Program-made: the position numbers and the translations under genes
Notes under the pieces: generated by a model
Told to the model about the DNA's origin: nothing
What the model saw: only the letters and a program-made list of their open reading frames with translations
Database searches by the model: none
From: a virus
Strand: one strand, 5' to 3'
Virus record (IMG/VR): IMGVR_UViG_3300017760_000015
Span: 1 to 41,890 of that record
DNA length: 41,890 nucleotides
Part shown: positions 12,320 through 37,795 of the stretch, one piece after another
How the letters are laid out: the number at the start of each line of letters is the position of its first letter
How positions within the stretch are numbered: position 1 is the stretch's first letter

Positions 12320-12327
12320 TATAAATA
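12320..12327 (+). promoter_or_regulatory. Late promoter for the rightward gp4-tape measure run
   Basis: The plus strand reads TATAAATA in the 47-nt gap between divergent genes. The predicted start is near 12333, leaving a leader of about 24 nt before the gp4 ATG. No clear Shine-Dalgarno is seen in the leader. Confidence 0.75.
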
Positions 12328-12351: not shown

Positions 12352-12359
12352 TATTTATG
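12352..12359 (-). promoter_or_regulatory. Late-type promoter for the leftward baseplate run
   Basis: The minus strand reads CATAAATA (7 of 8 matches to TATAAATA), 43 nt upstream of the gp48 ATG at 12309. It overlaps the first codon of gp4 on the other strand. With the plus-strand box at 12320 it forms a divergent late promoter pair. Confidence 0.55.
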
Positions 12360-12806
12360 GCATATTCGGGTAAGTTCAAACCAAAGAACTACAAAAAATA
12401 CAAAGGAGACCCCACTAAAATCTATTATAGGTCTTTATGGGAGCGTAGATTTATGGTTTACTGTGATGAAAACACCAATATCTTAGAATGGGGTAGTGAA
12501 GAAATCATTATACCCTACATTTCACCCCTAGACAAGAGACCACATAGATACTTTCCCGACTTTTACATAAAATATAAGAATGCATCGGGTCAAATACTCC
12601 GTGAAATCATTGAAGTCAAGCCTAAGAAACAAACTAAACCCCCAAAACAACCAAAACGTAAGACACAACGTTACTACAAAGAGGTTGCAACCTATGTTAT
12701 CAACGAAGCAAAGTTTAAAGCTGCAGAAAGTTTCTGCAAAGATAGAAAATTGGGATTCCGTATACTAACTGAAGACCATTTACTCCCAAAAAAGGTAAAG
12801 AAATGA
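12357..12806 (+). CDS. gp4: Head completion protein gp4 (PD-(D/E)XK nuclease fold)
   Basis: This 149-residue protein matches T4 gp4 (150) in length and pattern. Visible are KIYYRSLWERRFM (E30 region), RYFPDF (D68) and EIIEVKP (E86, K88), which together make the E...D...ExK active-site array of TnsA/PD-(D/E)XK nucleases. In T4 the product (also called gp50/gp4) is needed to finish DNA-filled heads before tails attach. The C-terminus is strongly basic (KKQTKPPKQPKRK), suitable for DNA binding. The HAD gene starts inside its stop codon (ATGA at 12803-12806). Confidence 0.88.
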   Translation: MAYSGKFKPKNYKKYKGDPTKIYYRSLWERRFMVYCDENTNILEWGSEEIIIPYISPLDKRPHRYFPDFYIKYKNASGQILREIIEVKPKKQTKPPKQPKRKTQRYYKEVATYVINEAKFKAAESFCKDRKLGFRILTEDHLLPKKVKK

Positions 12807-13384
12807 AAAAATTATATGTGTTTGATTTAGATGGAGTCTTAATTGATTCCAAAAAGAACATGGAAACAGCATTCAACTCCTTAGAGACTGGTATGCCATT
12901 TGAAGATTACTTCAAACATATTGGTAAACCATTCAAAGACATCTTAACTGAGATGGGTATACTTACTGACCAAGATGAGTTGATGAAAATGTACAACAAA
13001 GCATCTGAAGAAAATGGAGACATGATAAAATTCTACAAGGGTGTAGAAAAACACCTTCAACATTTACAAGCTGAAGGTAAAAAATTAGCCGTGGTAACTT
13101 CGAAGTCACATCACCGAGCTCATGCTATTCTGCTTGAACTTGATGTTGAATTTGAAATTATATGCTGTCCGAATGAACGGTTTAGAGGGAAACCATCTCC
13201 CGACCAATTACTATATACACTTGCAGAATGTAATGTAGACCCAAAAGATGCAGTCTATGTGGGTGACATGCAAGTAGATATGGATTGTGCAGACAGAGCT
13301 GGTGTTGATTTTATTTACGCAGAATATGGATATGGAGATATAGAATGTTGTTGGAACAGAGCAAGTTCAATCGAGTCGGTTTAA
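12803..13384 (+). CDS. HAD-superfamily phosphatase
   Basis: This 193-residue protein has all four HAD motifs: DLDGVLIDS (nucleophile D8, acid D10), VVTSKS near residue 97, a lysine in FRGKPSP near 130, and VGDMQVDMDCA near 152. The helical insert after motif I indicates a C1 cap, as in phosphoglycolate phosphatase or beta-phosphoglucomutase, rather than the capless KdsC type. It overlaps gp4 upstream (ATGA) and kdsB downstream by 40 nt. A role in dephosphorylating a sugar phosphate for the neighbouring nucleotide-sugar enzyme is an inference; the substrate is unknown. Confidence 0.85.
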   Translation: MKKLYVFDLDGVLIDSKKNMETAFNSLETGMPFEDYFKHIGKPFKDILTEMGILTDQDELMKMYNKASEENGDMIKFYKGVEKHLQHLQAEGKKLAVVTSKSHHRAHAILLELDVEFEIICCPNERFRGKPSPDQLLYTLAECNVDPKDAVYVGDMQVDMDCADRAGVDFIYAEYGYGDIECCWNRASSIESV

Positions 13385-14085
13385 TACCTGCCCGATATGG
13401 TTCATCTAGATTTGAGGGTAAACCCCTTGCATTAATCTGTGGTGAATCTATGATTAAGAGAACCTATGACCGTGCATCGGCTTCGAAGAAACTAGACAAG
13501 GTCTACGTGGTTACGGATGATAATAGAATTGAATACCATTGTGAGATATTCAACATACCTGTAATAAGAGTTGACGATGATTGTGAGACTGGAACAGATA
13601 GGTGTGCAATTGCATCCGAACAAATAGATGCAGATATCTATGTTAACATCCAAGGTGACGAACCTTTGATTGACCCCGAAGCAATTGATAGACTATGTGA
13701 TTATTTTAATCCTAATCTTGGTGTTGCAAATGCATACGTTACAGTCGAAGAACCTTACAAGGTCATGGACAACGATGTAGTAAAGGTTGTGTTTGATTCA
13801 CATCATTGTGCAATGTATTACTCACGTCTTGGTATACCTTTCCCACGAGGTGAGGATGCAAGGGTACATCAACAACTTGGTTTATATGCATTCACTAAAG
13901 AACGTCTACAAGAGTTCTCTAAGTTGCCTATGCAAACTTTAGAGTTTGCAGAACGAATAGAAATGTTGAGATTCTTAGAACATGGATATAAAGTTCTAAT
14001 GGTTCATGTAGAAGATGATGGTCTATCAGTAGACACACCTAAAGATATCAAACTAGTAGAGGATAGAATAAATGCATATAACTGA
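13345..14085 (+). CDS. kdsB: 3-deoxy-manno-octulosonate cytidylyltransferase (CMP-KDO synthetase)
   Basis: This 246-residue enzyme activates a 3-deoxy-octulosonic-type acid with CTP. Diagnostic segments are the IPARYGSSRFEGKPL nucleotide-binding loop (about residues 15-29), VVTDD, the ETGTDRC loop and NIQGDEPLI, all standard in KdsB. The C-terminal VDTPKD also fits. The length is that of bacterial KdsB. The ORF start gives about eleven extra residues before the first strand; a TTG just downstream is an alternative start. Its presence suggests the phage alters or builds a KDO-like surface sugar, or feeds LPS synthesis. No kdsA is present in the window. Confidence 0.88.
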   Translation: MLLEQSKFNRVGLIPARYGSSRFEGKPLALICGESMIKRTYDRASASKKLDKVYVVTDDNRIEYHCEIFNIPVIRVDDDCETGTDRCAIASEQIDADIYVNIQGDEPLIDPEAIDRLCDYFNPNLGVANAYVTVEEPYKVMDNDVVKVVFDSHHCAMYYSRLGIPFPRGEDARVHQQLGLYAFTKERLQEFSKLPMQTLEFAERIEMLRFLEHGYKVLMVHVEDDGLSVDTPKDIKLVEDRINAYN

Positions 14086-14788
14086 AGACCGCCTACGAGA
14101 AGCCTTTGAAAATAAATCTAAGGTATCAATACCAAAGATAGCGACTCTAGCCGAATGTAAACATTGGCATCCATATCACCCTAAGACATATGGAAAGAAC
14201 TTATTAAAGTATATTCATCACATCAATGTTGCAGAGAATAAGACCGACGATGATTCACTGAGAAACGAAGCACAGAAACTAGTTTGGTTAATAGACCAAT
14301 ACAAAACAGTAGGGTTTTATTCTACACCACAAGCATGGATTAAACCAAACGATAGATGGAGAGTTCACCCAGGCTCTGTTCGTGTAAATGCTCTGATACA
14401 ATGTAAAGCTTATGAAACAAAATTTGTTGTTTGGGATGACTCTAATTACTTACCTAACAATAAACAAATCACTTACGATGATTGGATAAATGAATTTCCA
14501 ATCCCCGAAGGTAGAAATGCAGTGTTCTTTGATGTTGAAGGTATGATTGAGTTTCATATATCTGAAGACCGTCCCGAAATGTATGAGTACTACTATAGAC
14601 TTAGAGAATTATATGAGGGTAAGAAACCTAGACTCATAGGAACCTGTGATGAAAGTATAAAACATCTATTCGGAAATGGTAGAGTTACCGTTACTGGTCA
14701 TATCACTGAAGAAGACCTCGGGTCATTCCTAGAAATAAATCCATCTAATCGAGAAGTTATAGAAACTAATTTTAGTATTGTAGCCTAA
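14072..14788 (+). CDS. Uncharacterised protein of the kdsB cassette
   Basis: This 238-residue protein is of unknown function. Its start overlaps the kdsB stop by 14 nt, so it is likely translated with it. The first part is His-rich (CKHWHPYHPKTYGKNLLKYIHHI). A central segment has RVHPGSVRVNALIQC followed by FVVWDD, reminiscent of an alpha/beta enzyme, but I cannot name a family. No membrane segment or signal peptide is visible. The context with KdsB and a HAD phosphatase suggests sugar or ligand handling, which is inference only. Confidence 0.6.
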   Translation: MHITEDRLREAFENKSKVSIPKIATLAECKHWHPYHPKTYGKNLLKYIHHINVAENKTDDDSLRNEAQKLVWLIDQYKTVGFYSTPQAWIKPNDRWRVHPGSVRVNALIQCKAYETKFVVWDDSNYLPNNKQITYDDWINEFPIPEGRNAVFFDVEGMIEFHISEDRPEMYEYYYRLRELYEGKKPRLIGTCDESIKHLFGNGRVTVTGHITEEDLGSFLEINPSNREVIETNFSIVA

Positions 14789-14792
14789 AATA

Positions 14793-14800
14793 CATAAATA
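14793..14800 (+). promoter_or_regulatory. Late-type promoter abutting the gp2-like gene
   Basis: The plus strand reads CATAAATA, then GTTCT, then ATG at 14806. The octamer differs from TATAAATA at one base. The predicted +1 is the A of the ATG, and no Shine-Dalgarno lies in front of the gene. Confidence 0.6.
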
Positions 14801-14805
14801 GTTCT

Positions 14806-15393
14806 ATGGTATCAAGAGTCTTATTGTCAGCAGTAGCAAAAATGTTACCCGAAGATGTAGAGTCGGGAACTGAAGATAGTCTTGAATGGTTTAGAAATAA
14901 CGTAAGAGATATTAAACTAAGACCCGATAGAGTAATGGGTGGACTGAGTTCGGTTACATCTAGTGGTTTGAAACAAGGTAAAGTATACATGTTTCACTAC
15001 GATGCTAAATGGCAAGATGAATTACCTTACTGGGATAAGTACCCAATAGTGATACCAATAGAACAATATAAAGATGGGTTCTTAGGTATTAATACACATT
15101 ACATTGCACCTAGACATAGAACTGCATTACTCAGACCCTTATTAGAAGAGCTAAGAGGCAATACAATAGAGGGTGATGGAGATACTAGAATGGAAGTTGA
15201 TTACAACATCATTCAGTACAATAATGATTTAAGGTTTGCAAAACCTTGTATCAAAAGATATTTAACAACACACATAGGTGCAAGAATAGTGGAAGTACCT
15301 TATCAACAATGGGAAGCAATATTGATGTTACCACTTGCAAAATTTAACGTCAACGCAAATACTGTGTATGCAGAGAGTCAAAGGAAATTCTAA
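14806..15393 (+). CDS. Conserved T4-like virion protein, possibly gp2 (DNA end protector) type
   Basis: This 195-residue protein carries the pattern FHYDAKWQDELPYWDKYPIVI, then GFLGINTHYIAPRHR, followed by an aromatic-rich C-terminus. I recall this 'YD-K...LPY-D..P', 'GF.G.N.HY..P..R' signature from structural proteins of many myoviruses, sometimes annotated as the gp2 DNA-end protector. The exact T4 equivalent (gp2 or gp3) is uncertain. Lying between gp4 and gp54 agrees with a head-completion or head-tail joining role. Translation seems to start without a leader (see the promoter at 14793). The stop overlaps the gp54 ATG region (TAATG). Confidence 0.5.
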   Translation: MVSRVLLSAVAKMLPEDVESGTEDSLEWFRNNVRDIKLRPDRVMGGLSSVTSSGLKQGKVYMFHYDAKWQDELPYWDKYPIVIPIEQYKDGFLGINTHYIAPRHRTALLRPLLEELRGNTIEGDGDTRMEVDYNIIQYNNDLRFAKPCIKRYLTTHIGARIVEVPYQQWEAILMLPLAKFNVNANTVYAESQRKF

Positions 15394-21401: not shown

Positions 21402-22133
21402 TCAAGATACTTCAGATGGGTGTCCCACCCCAAGTATCCACTTTTCACTATTTTCATAGTTAAGTTCATTATACTCTACTTTCACAAAACCTTCAAGAGG
21501 CTTTTTCCAATAGACATTAATGTTTTCATACTCCTTTAATAGAGCAAGAAACTGTTGTTGTTGAGTATGGAAGACTCTATCGTCTTCTGAATAATCAACC
21601 TTGTATTTATACAAGCCAGACTCAGCAAATATATTACTGGGGTCATTATGTTCAAGTGCATCGAATCCTATTAGACATATGTCTTTGTAACCGTTTTCGA
21701 TTGCATATCCTAATGCACTCATTCCACCAAATAGATTCTTAAGCTTAGGATTATTATACATAACTATGTTATTCCCATAGTCCCCGCTAATACCTATAAA
21801 GAAACATTCCTTTCCGTCGTAACTTCCTTGGACTGAAAACTCCGTATCTCCGTCCTTCCTAATCTCATAGAAGTTATCATATTCACCAATACCCATCTTC
21901 ATCATATCCCACATTTCAATCGGGACGGTCTCGAACTCGGCAAATGCAACTTTGTTTGTTTTATAGTATTCTTCGTCTACAATTTTTGCTTGAACTTCTA
22001 TATCAATTGCAAATAGTAAGTCGGGTTTAACAATATTATTTGATACTGCATTAAAACCCCACCACTCTTTATCTTTGAATTCTTCCCAGTCTACATTCTT
22101 CTGACTAGGGCCATTCCCTATTAAGTAGAGCAT
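21402..22133 (-). CDS. MptE/DUF115-like or sialyltransferase-like protein
   Basis: This 243-residue protein opens with YLIGNGPSQKNVDWEEF, the 'GNGPS' nucleotide-binding loop shared by DUF115/MptE-like proteins and CST-type sialyltransferases. A second shared element is FGGMSALGYAIENGYKDICLIGFDAL near residue 140-165. DUF115-type proteins act in glycan (for example pseudaminic acid) transfer or pterin pyrophosphorylation. The exact reaction here is unknown. The gene is inserted between gp59 and gp32, which are adjacent in T4, and overlaps gp59 by 13 nt. Confidence 0.65.
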   Translation of the reverse strand: MLYLIGNGPSQKNVDWEEFKDKEWWGFNAVSNNIVKPDLLFAIDIEVQAKIVDEEYYKTNKVAFAEFETVPIEMWDMMKMGIGEYDNFYEIRKDGDTEFSVQGSYDGKECFFIGISGDYGNNIVMYNNPKLKNLFGGMSALGYAIENGYKDICLIGFDALEHNDPSNIFAESGLYKYKVDYSEDDRVFHTQQQQFLALLKEYENINVYWKKPLEGFVKVEYNELNYENSEKWILGVGHPSEVS

Positions 22134-28218: not shown

Positions 28219-28226
28219 TATTTATA
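28219..28226 (-). promoter_or_regulatory. Late promoter abutting the 81-residue gene, embedded in the SDR stop
   Basis: The minus strand reads TATAAATA, CTACT, ATG. The TAA stop of the upstream SDR gene (28222-28224) lies inside the octamer. The predicted +1 is the A of the ATG at 28213. Confidence 0.8.
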
Positions 28227-28833
28227 ACGTATCGTCGTGAAGATGGTAAAAAGTTTCCATATCTTTATACATCTGTTTGTCACTCTGTACATCTTGATAG
28301 TTTGCAAATGCTTGTATGGTTGCTTCGGGAATCTCTATATCGGGATAACTAGTAATTAAATAATACACTAGACCCGAAACACTTTGCCATGTAAGACTAG
28401 GTAAGTCTTCATGATTTAACAGTCCTAGATTGAGTGTAGTAAGTTTGTATTGTCTTTCTGAGTTGTATGTAAGGTTACTACTTAAATGATTTAGAGAAGC
28501 TTTCTCAGCTGCATACATGTGACCCTTGGAGATGTTTGGTTGAGATGCACGAGATGAAAAGTTAATGATGAACTTAGTTTTATCTTCTTTCCATGCACGG
28601 TGAGCTATCTCTAGAACTTTAGTTTGGTCAAAGTCTCTATGTGCAAAGTTAATTAACACGTCAATATGATTAGGGTTCTCATAATCAAATCCGAACCAGT
28701 TAACGTCATTCATTAGTATGTCGTCTAGTCTAGGTGTAGACACTTTAATATCATCACCTTGATATGGTGTTGCTTCTAGTGTATCTTTAATGTTCTTTGC
28801 GAGACCACTACTTCCTGTTATTGCTACCTTCAT
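28222..28833 (-). CDS. SDR-type NAD(P)-dependent oxidoreductase/epimerase-like protein
   Basis: The protein is 203 residues from ATG at 28833 (MKVAITGSSGLAKNI); a GTG nine bases upstream is an alternative. The Gly-rich Rossmann loop TGSSGLAKNI, a VLINFAHR strand, the FIINFSSRAS strand and YAAEKAS (the Y-x-x-x-K pair of SDR enzymes) are all seen. It is shorter than typical sugar epimerases, so the substrate-binding part is reduced. It overlaps the radical-SAM gene by 26 nt, so the two probably act on one pathway. The substrate is unknown. Confidence 0.75.
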   Translation of the reverse strand: MKVAITGSSGLAKNIKDTLEATPYQGDDIKVSTPRLDDILMNDVNWFGFDYENPNHIDVLINFAHRDFDQTKVLEIAHRAWKEDKTKFIINFSSRASQPNISKGHMYAAEKASLNHLSSNLTYNSERQYKLTTLNLGLLNHEDLPSLTWQSVSGLVYYLITSYPDIEIPEATIQAFANYQDVQSDKQMYKDMETFYHLHDDTL

Positions 28834-29761
28834 AATATTCACTCACTATGTCGAACGATTGTTTACCAAATAAGCTACCATCGACACTGCACTTATTACA
28901 TGGGGACATATCTCTGTTCCCCTTTATTAATTTTTTTCTAATCTTATTCATGGGTTTAGAGAACCATACATTATGTAGGGTCTCTGATAATAAGTTACCT
29001 ACAACATGCTCTCTACCCCAGTCATTGGAACAGAATAAAACATCACCATTCCAATCAACAAACATTTTATAAAAAGGATAATGACATGGCTTACCTTTAA
29101 GTGCTTCAATTGTAGACTCCTCTATTCCTACCCAATCCATTACACCACTTCGATTGTTTAGTATCAATCCATGTGTTACGAAATCTCCCCAATGCATTCT
29201 GTACTTGTATCTTTCTTCGGGAATGTATTTCATCACTTCATCAAAGTGTTCTATCTGTTCTACTCCGTCATAAAGATTAATGTAGAGTAAATCTAATCCA
29301 CTAAACTCAAACAACTCTTCTGCATATTCTCTAGTAAGTTTATCTCCGTTAGTGTTACACTCTAATGTTGCATTCGGAACACTGTGTCTAAACGTATGCA
29401 CAATTTCTTGGAACCTAGGATTAAGTAAATTTTCTCCGTATCCACTTAACGATATCTTACCACTAAATCCATTCTTATGTAATTCGTCTCCAATAGTCTT
29501 TGCAGCCTTGGGTGTCATATGTAAGTTTCTATTTGGAAACACTTCGGGATTTGCACGTGGACAAAATGAACATGTCCTGTTGCACAACTCTGTAGTGTTA
29601 ACTTCGACTGTGAGAATAGAACTAAGTTCTGTCAACTCTCCTTGTCGACTCCAATGTTTCTCTTCTTGCTTCCTACGGTGTTCTAGAAAATCATACTGGT
29701 CAACTGCAGTGATTGGAATATTACGTGACACGTTTAACTCTGATTTGTCTTTCTTGTTCAT
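28808..29761 (-). CDS. Radical SAM enzyme with SPASM-like C-terminus
   Basis: The protein is 317 residues from ATG at 29761. The open frame extends 44 codons further, but that part lies inside the upstream gene and does not look like protein from this family. The radical-SAM cluster motif is C60-x3-C64-x2-C67 (CNRTCSFC), followed by the GYGENLLNP (GGE-like) loop. The C-terminal cysteines (CHYP, LFCSNDWG, PCNKCSVDG) resemble a SPASM domain that binds auxiliary Fe-S clusters. Such enzymes modify peptides or sugars. The A-type Fe-S carrier at 35630 may help mature it. Confidence 0.82.
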   Translation of the reverse strand: MNKKDKSELNVSRNIPITAVDQYDFLEHRRKQEEKHWSRQGELTELSSILTVEVNTTELCNRTCSFCPRANPEVFPNRNLHMTPKAAKTIGDELHKNGFSGKISLSGYGENLLNPRFQEIVHTFRHSVPNATLECNTNGDKLTREYAEELFEFSGLDLLYINLYDGVEQIEHFDEVMKYIPEERYKYRMHWGDFVTHGLILNNRSGVMDWVGIEESTIEALKGKPCHYPFYKMFVDWNGDVLFCSNDWGREHVVGNLLSETLHNVWFSKPMNKIRKKLIKGNRDMSPCNKCSVDGSLFGKQSFDIVSEYYEGSNNRK

Positions 29762-30170
29762 CCAAAATCTGTTCGTGGTAAGAAAACTCAATTGAGTCGC
29801 CAATGTTAAACTCTCCTTCTGTAAAGTATTTGGGGATGATAAAAAACTGTGATGATTTGTCTTCGTTGATTTTACAACTTCTTGGGTCACCATGTCTATT
29901 GTAAAGATATGGTCTAACGTGTAATCCGTCTTTGTTTAAATCGTGTGCTGAGAAAATCAGCTCATTGTCTTCTAGATAAAGATTAACGAATGGGGTATCG
30001 TATTGGATACCTAAACGGATTGTGTATTCGGTAGGGAAATTAAAACGAAGAACGTCATCCTCTATTTCAGAAAAACGTTCTACGTATCTTGGACTAACTT
30101 TGTTTAAATCAAGGGGTAATACTTCTGATAACTTAGAAGTATCCACCGTCTCGCACAGTATCATCGTCAT
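29721..30170 (-). CDS. Uncharacterised protein between the acidic protein and radical SAM
   Basis: This 149-residue protein is beta-rich (EYTIRLGIQYDTPFVNLYLE, FIIPKYFTEGEFNIGDSIEF). Its first codons overlap the end of the acidic protein by 38 nt and its end overlaps the radical-SAM start by 41 nt. A GTG within the overlap (reading VDTSKL) is an alternative start. No family is recognised and no membrane or signal segment is present. Confidence 0.6.
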   Translation of the reverse strand: MTMILCETVDTSKLSEVLPLDLNKVSPRYVERFSEIEDDVLRFNFPTEYTIRLGIQYDTPFVNLYLEDNELIFSAHDLNKDGLHVRPYLYNRHGDPRSCKINEDKSSQFFIIPKYFTEGEFNIGDSIEFSYHEQILDEQERQIRVKRVT

Positions 30171-35961: not shown

Positions 35962-35969
35962 TATTTATA
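35962..35969 (-). promoter_or_regulatory. Late promoter abutting the Fe-S carrier gene, embedded in upstream stop
   Basis: The minus strand reads TATAAATA, CTTCT, ATG. The TAA stop of the carbamoyltransferase C-part (35965-35967) lies inside the octamer. The predicted +1 is the ATG at 35956. Confidence 0.8.
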
Positions 35970-36603
35970 CTTCAGACTCCCATACGCCGTGGTCATTAGC
36001 GTCGTTATCATGTTTATCTTTTTTAGGTTTAAATAATTCATAAGGAATATCTCCAGTTTGGTCTTCGGGTACATAGAGATAATTAATATCTGAACGGTTA
36101 CATGTATCAATTGCATCGAAGATAGTTTCCACTAAAGCTTCACCACCTAAATTAAATGATGTATTAAATATAATAGGGGTGCCATTCTTTTCACCTAATG
36201 CTTTAATTAAATTATAATAATTTTTATTTTGTTCTTCTGTAACTGTTTGAATTCTACATGTACCATCTGCATGAACAATAGCAGGAATCTCTTCGTATGC
36301 TTTCTTCTTACATTGAATTGCAAACGACATATAAGGAGACTCTTCTAACTGCAACATTTTAAAATATTCATGTGCATGTTCTTTTAATACAGTACCAGCA
36401 AATGGTCTATAATATTCTCTCTTCTTAATTGTATTAACAATTTGTTTTGCATTTGGATTAGTAGGGTCAAATAATATTGAACGATTACCTAATGCACGTG
36501 GGCCCCATTCGGAACCGTTTTGAAACATACCAATAACCTGTTGTTTATCTGTAAGTAATTCGATTACTTGGTCTTGGTCTCTTATGACTTCTGCTTTAAT
36601 CAT
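35965..36603 (-). CDS. Carbamoyltransferase, C-terminal subunit (split gene)
   Basis: The protein is 212 residues from ATG at 36603 (MIKAEVIRDQDQVIELL). It is the C-terminal domain of NodU/CmcH-type O-carbamoyltransferases: GMFQNGSEWGPRALGNRSIL, YYRPFAGTVL, HADGTCRIQTV and NTSFNLGGEAL are all hallmark segments. In most bacteria this is one protein with the N-terminal domain. Here the two parts are separate genes with an ATGATTAA overlap of eight bases and an AGGAG in front of the second start, so both are made and should assemble. An earlier in-frame ATG (36693) lies in the other ORF and looks spurious. Confidence 0.85.
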   Translation of the reverse strand: MIKAEVIRDQDQVIELLTDKQQVIGMFQNGSEWGPRALGNRSILFDPTNPNAKQIVNTIKKREYYRPFAGTVLKEHAHEYFKMLQLEESPYMSFAIQCKKKAYEEIPAIVHADGTCRIQTVTEEQNKNYYNLIKALGEKNGTPIIFNTSFNLGGEALVETIFDAIDTCNRSDINYLYVPEDQTGDIPYELFKPKKDKHDNDANDHGVWESEV

Positions 36604-37795
36604 TTGTAGTCTCCTGTTGTTTCTGATTATAATAATGCAACCAGTATGCAGCTCCAAGTGCAGTACCACCATCATGGGGTACAGGGTCAACAAATATATT
36701 TAATTCGGGGAACTCTTGTAAGTATCTGTAATTGTTTGTACAATTTAATGAGAACCCACCACTGAGTACTAGGTTCTTACAATCGGGATTTAATTCCATT
36801 GCACGTCTTATAACAATACATGCATTCTTAAATGATTCTTCCTCACACATTTGTGCAACGATATGTCTATCAAATCTATCGGGTCTATCTTCATATAGTC
36901 TTCCGTATGATGCCATACCCATTACCTTACCCGCTGCACGTCCATGAGCATCTGCACCGAAGGCATAACTCATGTTACTGAAGTTCATACCGCTAGAAGG
37001 GAAGCTAGTGAACACTGTAGGGATATTATTAGTAGAGTCATCGTTGACTACCTTATCCTGTAAACAGTGTGCTGAATCATAGTACATGTTAGGGAAATAC
37101 TTACTTGCAAGTGAACCTAACTCACGGTGATTAGACATCTTCTTCCATTGGGGTAGAATCTCTTTCTTCTCAAAGTTACAAGACCAAATAGATTCAATCT
37201 CTTGGTAGTTCGGATACTCTTTGTGCAAACACTTTGCACCGCCACCGTCCCATGCGATAGCCATTGCATCCTCACCCTTCTCATAGAAAGGACTTAGGAA
37301 GTAACCACTGTATGCATGATACATATGATGTTCGATATCAAAATGATATTCTTCTACCTCATGAAACTGTTTACACATTGCATCGTGTATAGCTTCATCC
37401 ATATCTTCGTGCCAGTCGAACTTTAGTCCGAGTTTAGGAAACTCTTCTGATATTTCTTCTAGTCTTTTAAGACTGAGTTGTTCTTTTGAAAATGCAACTG
37501 CTACTTCTTCTGCAATTAATCTATTCTCCATAAGATATTCTTTGTCCATGTCTATCTGACATACACGTCTATCGAAAGAAGCAAAGATAAGTTCACCACA
37601 TGGGGTACCATCTTCGTTGATTAATGCATCTGCAACTCCTTTAGAGTCTACTACATGTAATTCGGGGTTGTTTATATTCGGTGAATAGTACTTATCTCGA
37701 CGTTCTCTCTCTTCTTCAAAGAGTTCTTTGACTTCACCGTCTTCCATGATACACAAAGAAGTGTCATGGCTGGAATTGATTCCAATTATTCTCAT
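36596..37795 (-). CDS. Carbamoyltransferase, N-terminal subunit (Kae1-like, split gene)
   Basis: The protein is 399 residues with the Carbam_trans_N pattern: GINSSHDTSLCIMEDGEV, then DIEHHMYHAYSGYF (metal-binding His), AIAWDGGG, GKVMGMASYG, and LVLSGGFSLNCTNN, followed by DPVPHDGGTALGAAYW. These enzymes use carbamoyl phosphate and ATP to make a carbamoyladenylate and transfer it to a sugar or antibiotic hydroxyl. The frame ends just after the N-terminal domain, and the C-terminal domain is the next gene. The phage substrate may be a virion glycan, a host polysaccharide or a modified nucleotide. Confidence 0.88.
   Translation of the reverse strand: MRIIGINSSHDTSLCIMEDGEVKELFEEERERRDKYYSPNINNPELHVVDSKGVADALINEDGTPCGELIFASFDRRVCQIDMDKEYLMENRLIAEEVAVAFSKEQLSLKRLEEISEEFPKLGLKFDWHEDMDEAIHDAMCKQFHEVEEYHFDIEHHMYHAYSGYFLSPFYEKGEDAMAIAWDGGGAKCLHKEYPNYQEIESIWSCNFEKKEILPQWKKMSNHRELGSLASKYFPNMYYDSAHCLQDKVVNDDSTNNIPTVFTSFPSSGMNFSNMSYAFGADAHGRAAGKVMGMASYGRLYEDRPDRFDRHIVAQMCEEESFKNACIVIRRAMELNPDCKNLVLSGGFSLNCTNNYRYLQEFPELNIFVDPVPHDGGTALGAAYWLHYYNQKQQETTND

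Follow-up and report, generated by a model that had tools for sequence, protein, structure and literature searches.

Phage sugar genes are often read as genes that act on the host envelope. Several described systems come close to the one considered here. Cluster O mycobacteriophages (Corndog) carry glycosyltransferases inside the operon for virion structure, for which a role in capsid modification has been proposed (PMC4351075). Giant viruses possess modules for the cytidine monophosphate (CMP)-activated form of 3-deoxy-D-manno-octulosonic acid (KDO), which have been proposed to serve virion glycoconjugates (PMC10570341). The cyanophage S-SCSM2R has a glycan island (PQ898602.1, positions 202814-217416) that codes for KdsB, KdsA, a GT24-like transferase and 2-oxoglutarate (2OG) oxygenases beside psbA. 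Here we describe a variant of phage sugar gene sets in the virus record IMGVR_UViG_3300017760_000015, all 41,890 bases of which (the window, probably a genome fragment) were analysed. It is a cassette of three genes coding for 1) a phosphatase of the haloacid dehalogenase superfamily (HAD); 2) a KdsB-like CMP-ulosonate synthetase (KdsB); and 3) a protein of an unnamed family, here called UNK, which is the most interesting part of the set. Judging from sequence and gene context, there is a little less than an even chance that this insert in a marine T4-like phage serves late in infection to activate KDO or a closely related ulosonic acid for use in glycosylation, the likeliest targets being virion proteins. 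The Cluster O system differs from it in that both the phages and the enzymes are unrelated and a CMP-sugar step is not mentioned in the available part of the account (PMC4351075), whereas the giant-virus modules belong to eukaryotic viruses and comprise three pathway genes (K01627, K00979 and K06041), the corresponding portion of that account making no mention of UNK (PMC10570341).

A preliminary description, made from the sequence alone, had proposed three open reading frames (ORFs) for a HAD phosphatase, KdsB and an unknown protein, overlapping each other and the head closure gene gp4. Their starts, stops and family matches agree with this, and the overlaps are exact: 4 nt between gp4 and HAD (ATGA, with the TGA of gp4 in the start of HAD), 40 nt between HAD and KdsB and 14 nt between KdsB and UNK (Table 1). 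The cassette had also been placed between head-completion and tail genes, which holds on the side of gp4; however, the gene after UNK is gp2, so that the cassette in fact lies between two head-completion genes, with gp19 (tail tube) and gp26 (baseplate hub) following gp2. The arrangement is far beyond chance, because the 4-nt overlap between gp4 and HAD is constant in all 16 cassette loci compared and the trio recurs in relatives down to ~46% (HAD), ~49% (KdsB) and ~28% (UNK) identity. All three genes show purifying selection (ratios of nonsynonymous to synonymous substitution of ~0.11-0.34 in six pairs), and the G+C content of the cassette, 0.36-0.38, equals that of the flanking sequence.

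Relatives were gathered from viral contigs by means of UNK (13), KdsB (25) and gp4 (at least 80 loci); the UNK and KdsB sets over-represent carriers of the cassette, and the resulting occurrence counts are lower bounds. Near-identical loci among L001-L115 were merged into 83 clusters. In this survey, which the preliminary description had suggested, cassette genes were found in 19 clusters, and 51 were empty sites at which gp4 is directly followed by gp2 (gap of 3-444 bp), the remaining 13 not being assessable. The full order gp4-HAD-KdsB-UNK-gp2 is present in 16 of the 19; two of the others (L023 and L042) end at contig ends, and the third (L061) has the full trio with no gp2 behind it. The order of the trio is constant and is split only at contig ends. 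A pair of loci that are ~70-77% identical around the site (L063 and L059) places the insert where gp4 ends, ahead of the gp2 promoter. The trio is a real presence/absence cassette at the gp4-gp2 border. Among the matches listed, 15 of the 80 gp4-recruited loci possess HAD, with or without the rest of the trio. The cassette has likely been gained or lost more than once, as the gp4 tree needs at least five changes of state, although its strongly supported branches alone force just one. In some carriers (L061, L127, L132 and L133) gp4 and the cassette are oriented opposite to, or lie away from, gp2/gp19, so that the trio stays with gp4 and not with gp2.

As for the phages that bear the cassette, the nearest isolates by gp6 are the OM43 phage Melnitz and the SAR11 phages Mosig and HTVC008M (39-41%); in Methylophilales phage Melnitz the next gene follows gp4 after ~16 nt. 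No isolate searched in INPHARED has the cassette: UNK was not found in any of them at an E-value of 1e-5, 7 of its 50,697 records have a KdsB relative, with ~36% identity at most, and gp4 is matched in 2461 records. A scan of genome contigs with UNK recovered a single relative (L116; JAAXIF010000105.1), binned in a Sphingobacteriales metagenome-assembled genome (MAG). As this stretch of contig is a T4-like phage with the same trio, we take it as phage rather than as a bacterial homologue. Photosystem genes are present in two of the 31 virus records, both cassette-free, and in none of the 20 cassette-bearing ones, which makes it improbable that the carriers are cyanophages. In the available portions of the literature searched we recognised no description of the cassette or of the UNK-glycosyltransferase fusions presented below.

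The late promoter of T4 and KVP40 is TATAAATA, and that of the T4-like cyanophage S-PM2 is NATAAATA (PMC2984593). In the window an exact TATAAATA 5' of gp4 probably drives both gp4 and the cassette; the same motif is found 30-46 nt 5' of gp4 in 14 of the 16 distinct cassette loci, and NATAAATA occurs at most 80 nt 5' of the gp2 match in 14 of 15. The probable late promoter of gp2 in the window, CATAAATA, stands at the 3' edge of the insert. Window-wide, TATAAATA is not enriched (101 matches with at most one mismatch, 107 expected). The conserved gp4 promoter together with the overlapping genes supports the earlier claim of late expression, and we infer that the cassette is reached by late read-through from that promoter.

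The synthetase belongs to the CTP_transf_3 family (PF02348; 148 bits against a curated cut-off of 22.6, E = 4.4e-43), a match seen in all 20 cassette-bearing virus records and in none of the 11 others. It exceeds the cut-offs of the NCBIfam subfamilies NF003952 (249.6 vs 193) and NF003950 (240.8 vs 234) and falls just below that of NF009905 (246.5 vs 255). Because it misses the equivalog cut-offs of both TIGR00466 and NF003948 (157.1 vs 281 for the latter), we file it only as a KdsB-like CMP-ulosonate synthetase. The best solved match of its profile is the CMP-KDO synthetase KpsU (PDB: 1gq9; E = 4.3e-56). The motifs with the metal-binding aspartate pair and the catalytic lysine, residues whose roles in CMP-KDO synthetases have been described (PMC3149649), are kept in 18 of 18 aligned homologues. 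The cassette enzyme thus shares with KdsB and KpsU both the family and the aspartate pair and lysine (QGDEP, SVD and GKP); it differs from them in its place in a phage late operon and in two features of its sequence that are weighed below.

HAD matches PF13419 (E = 1.6e-33), and its four motifs, which we take to hold the catalytic residues as in the rest of the superfamily, are intact in all 19 aligned homologues. It is nearest to capped phosphatases of the phosphoglycolate phosphatase (PGP)/beta-phosphoglucomutase (beta-PGM)-like type, and also gives a weak match to N-acylneuraminate-9-phosphatase. KdsC, the KDO-8-phosphate phosphatase, likewise belongs to the HAD superfamily and would be the enzyme expected for this step of the pathway, but its model, TIGR01670, matched none of 32 records, with control genomes being matched; by its profile matches the HAD of the cassette is not KdsC. 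Most of the virus records searched are fragments. Among them KdsA, the KDO-8-phosphate synthase, was found in none of 31, its single match being in a bacterial MAG, and KDO transferases of the KpsC/S and KdtA types were each found in none of 32 records. With no known KDO-8-phosphate synthase, KdsC or KDO transferase having been found, UNK is therefore the one new protein of the cassette that might make use of the activated sugar. In the mechanism that we propose, HAD would dephosphorylate a phospho-ulosonate that the host makes, such as KDO-8-phosphate; KdsB, as its family and catalytic residues indicate, would join the predicted sugar to CMP; and UNK may receive or deliver the activated sugar or prepare the acceptor.

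Another protein, GTx, came into question as the missing KDO transferase, but in view of its distribution was rejected as a required partner. It is a GNGPS-motif protein of no known family, encoded between gp59 and gp32 (window 21402-22133, minus strand), with 26 relatives in viral contigs and none in INPHARED. Across the 32 records it is full-length in nine cassette-bearing and two cassette-free ones, leaves remnants in three more and is lacking from the 146-kb cassette record G004; just a 26-residue C-terminal remnant was found in the cassette-bearing G003, G005 and G020. A comparison of the G004 proteins of at least 100 residues with five cassette-free records, which is weak as most of the records are fragments, yielded no further enzyme-like gene confined to carriers. 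The list consists of HAD, KdsB and one 126-residue protein, along with ORFs that are small or doubtful; UNK was missing from it only because the cassette-free G021 holds one of the fusions.

Searches with UNK recovered no credible family in Pfam, PHROGs or NCBIfam, and nothing credible by sequence in PDB or INPHARED. A UNK-like domain nevertheless forms the N-terminal half of proteins of ~450-540 residues in the same phage group. At least 266 such relatives were recovered, and from the 80 loci kept we obtained 50 distinct complete ORFs, all of which match the UNK hidden Markov model (HMM; E = 6e-31 to 6e-9) and contain HPGxxR; the comparison of UNK with this N-terminal domain by hhalign (99.8%, 3E-27) likewise identifies it as a clear homologue. 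The UNK domain, which the cassette encodes as a separate protein, is hence widespread, with no entry in the family libraries searched and no earlier name found for the fusions. Their C-terminal half matches PHROG 28018 and, in some isolates, proteins that bear a glycosyltransferase annotation. In Foldseek searches its model (pLDDT 72 overall) retrieved UGGT (4e-6) and the PBCV-1 capsid glycosyltransferase (3.9e-4), and a further fold comparison (VIA) aligned it with the GT8 structure 3tzt_B (Z 12.6, rmsd 2.7 over 185 residues), its score against the Pfam GT8 model being below cut-off (16.9 vs 24.3). The modelled half thus has a GT8/GT24-type (GT-A) glycosyltransferase fold. A DxD-type metal motif, DDD, is present in 43 of the 50 ORFs; one of the seven without it is probably a 340-residue ORF (L261).

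The fusion genes stand in a recurrent locus (L210-L289; L158:2719-10060; L198:208-7042) that codes for a Pro/Tyr/Arg-rich repeat protein, the fusion, a 185-residue protein, two 2OG-Fe(II) oxygenases and a PHROG 7084 protein. By a composition rule made for this analysis, a proline-rich repeat protein lies 5' of the fusion in 33 of 41 assessable loci (the repeat proteins of L210, L213 and L214 fall just under the rule), and four constant families, including the two oxygenases, lie 3' of it in 43 of 44. This locus looks like a unit that hydroxylates and glycosylates a fibre-like protein. In a second architecture (L215-L225) the fusion follows a protein that looks like a tail-tube end. UNK and the fusion are both present in four cassette-bearing records (G001, G004, G008 and G013); unlike the cassette gene, the fusion has no KdsB or HAD adjoining it in the G004 stretch. 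The S-SCSM2R island is comparable in that a phage KdsB occurs near a GT24 transferase related to the C-terminal half of the fusions, but it includes KdsA, its KdsB is 32% identical, and the stretch contains neither a UNK HMM match nor head genes.

The motifs of UNK are invariant in 18 of 18 aligned homologues, and its AlphaFold2 model is confident (pLDDT 91.2). The top PDB rows in Foldseek are nearly all ParB, KorB, Noc, PadC or sulfiredoxin, albeit weak (best E 0.074), as is the VIA comparison (Z 4.0, rmsd 4.8 over 82 residues), which covers the families it lists; viral structure matches are similar. HPGxxR contains the GxxR of the ParB P motif in all 18 UNK proteins and all 50 fusions, and we infer that it occupies the same position of the fold. 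In ParB, R-to-A mutants of this motif serve as non-binding controls (PMC12704722); a word count of that source shows no occurrence of glycosyltransferase. In terms of sequence profiles no similarity to the ParB/sulfiredoxin superfamily (ParB, Noc, Srx, SbnI and SerK) was found: hhalign of UNK against 31 bacterial ParB proteins gave a probability of 0.2%, with no kinship found, and there is no ParB Pfam match among the 18 members. Because the fold matches are weak and the hhalign comparison is negative, we treat a ParB/sulfiredoxin-like fold for UNK as a lead only.

Virion glycosylation or a late envelope change had both been offered in the preliminary description. We favour the glycosylation of virion proteins over a pure role in lipopolysaccharide (LPS), because UNK is related to the N-terminal half of fusions that stand beside proline-rich repeat proteins and 2OG oxygenases, a homology that supports the virion side without proving it. 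Several points weigh against this preference. The adjacency of gp4 and gp2 does not name the acceptor of the sugar; the fusion is present without the cassette in G021, so that KdsB is no prerequisite for the UNK domain; and the fusions carry a GT8/GT24-type transferase, which normally uses UDP-sugars, so UNK need not act on CMP-KDO. Moreover, a host transferase could put CMP-KDO on LPS. Because the host could in this way use CMP-KDO with its own enzymes, a late change of its envelope has to be considered as the main rival, and we regard it as unlikely: the phage would raise CMP-KDO, and host KDO transferases, with UNK helping, would alter LPS so as to hide a receptor, block superinfection or aid release. 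LPS is the canonical use of CMP-KDO, host enzymes would be needed since no KdtA or KpsC/S was found among the phage records, the LPS gene clusters of cyanophage P-SSM2 have been proposed to act so (PMC2984593), and the finding of no photosystem genes in the carriers searched fits a heterotrophic Gram-negative host. The insertion of the cassette in a late virion-assembly operon, however, and the fusion of UNK relatives to glycosyltransferases beside fibre-like genes point to the particle. The identity of the sugar is a separate matter. Since the synthetase scores 140.9 bits against the cut-off of 155.2 for the kdsB equivalog TIGR00466, and has glutamine (QQ[LM]GLY in 18 of 18 phage enzymes) for the histidine that four aligned bacterial enzymes have in the HxGxY segment of the C-terminal domain, it may act on a sugar other than KDO. 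In that case a different host intermediate could be turned into a variant ulosonic acid, such as an amino-deoxy or 9-carbon one, for which the capped HAD would be the dedicated phosphatase. This is compatible with either destination and in line with the departure of HAD from KdsC and its weak N-acylneuraminate-9-phosphatase match; we hold it to be rather unlikely, as the solved structures that KdsB matches best are without exception CMP-KDO synthetases, with the CMP-sialate synthetase PpNeuA scoring far lower.

UNK might also be a ParB-like nucleotide switch or kinase that transfers no sugar, the trio then only regulating or supporting metabolism. The ParB-dominated Foldseek rows and the invariant GxxR would accord with this, but the weakness of all fold matches, the negative hhalign comparison and the fusion of its relatives to glycosyltransferases render it improbable. 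That the cassette is passive cargo (a moron) with no phage function could account for its patchy occurrence and for the changes on the gp4 tree, yet it is barely credible in view of the purifying selection, the overlaps kept across divergent phages and the G+C content equal to that of its neighbours. Within the favoured reading of virion protein glycosylation, a bolder and quite unlikely proposal is that UNK represents a new class of glycan enzyme, in which a ParB/sulfiredoxin-like domain would bind cytidine nucleotides or CMP-sugars and transfer to late virion proteins either the ulosonic acid or its phosphate, alone with KdsB and HAD here and in tandem with a GT8/GT24 transferase at the fibre locus. 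If so, a two-step sugar decoration would be built on phage particles. A late CMP-ulosonate module between head-completion genes, with its third protein shared with fibre-locus glycosyltransferases, offers a concrete way to ask whether the particles of marine T4-like phages are sugar-coated by the phages themselves.

Table 1. Features of the cassette and its borders in the window
Feature	Position	Strand	Remarks
Late promoter TATAAATA, exact	12320..12327	+	37 nt 5' of gp4
gp4, head closure/completion gene	12357..12806	+	5' neighbour; PHROG 218 head closure, E 4.5e-60
HAD-superfamily phosphatase	12803..13384	+	motifs FDLDGVLI, TSK, GKPxPDQLL, GDMxxD
KdsB-like CMP-ulosonate (CMP-KDO type) synthetase	13345..14085	+	motifs F.GKPL, QGDEP, SVD
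UNK, unnamed family	14072..14788	+	motifs HPGxxRxxA, ExHxxExR
CATAAATA, probable late promoter of gp2	14793..14800	+	downstream border of insert
gp2, DNA end protector	14806..15393	+	3' neighbour; PHROG 429, E 2e-44

Two further sets of genes on the minus strand of the window were also observed. A carbamoyltransferase of the PHROG 1601 type (35965-37795) extends over two overlapping frames, with the N-terminal part at 36599-37795 and the C-terminal part at 35965-36693, which may reflect a true split, a frameshift or a sequencing error. At 28222-29893 a radical SAM/SPASM protein overlaps a short dehydrogenase-like protein, and this pair recurs in relatives.

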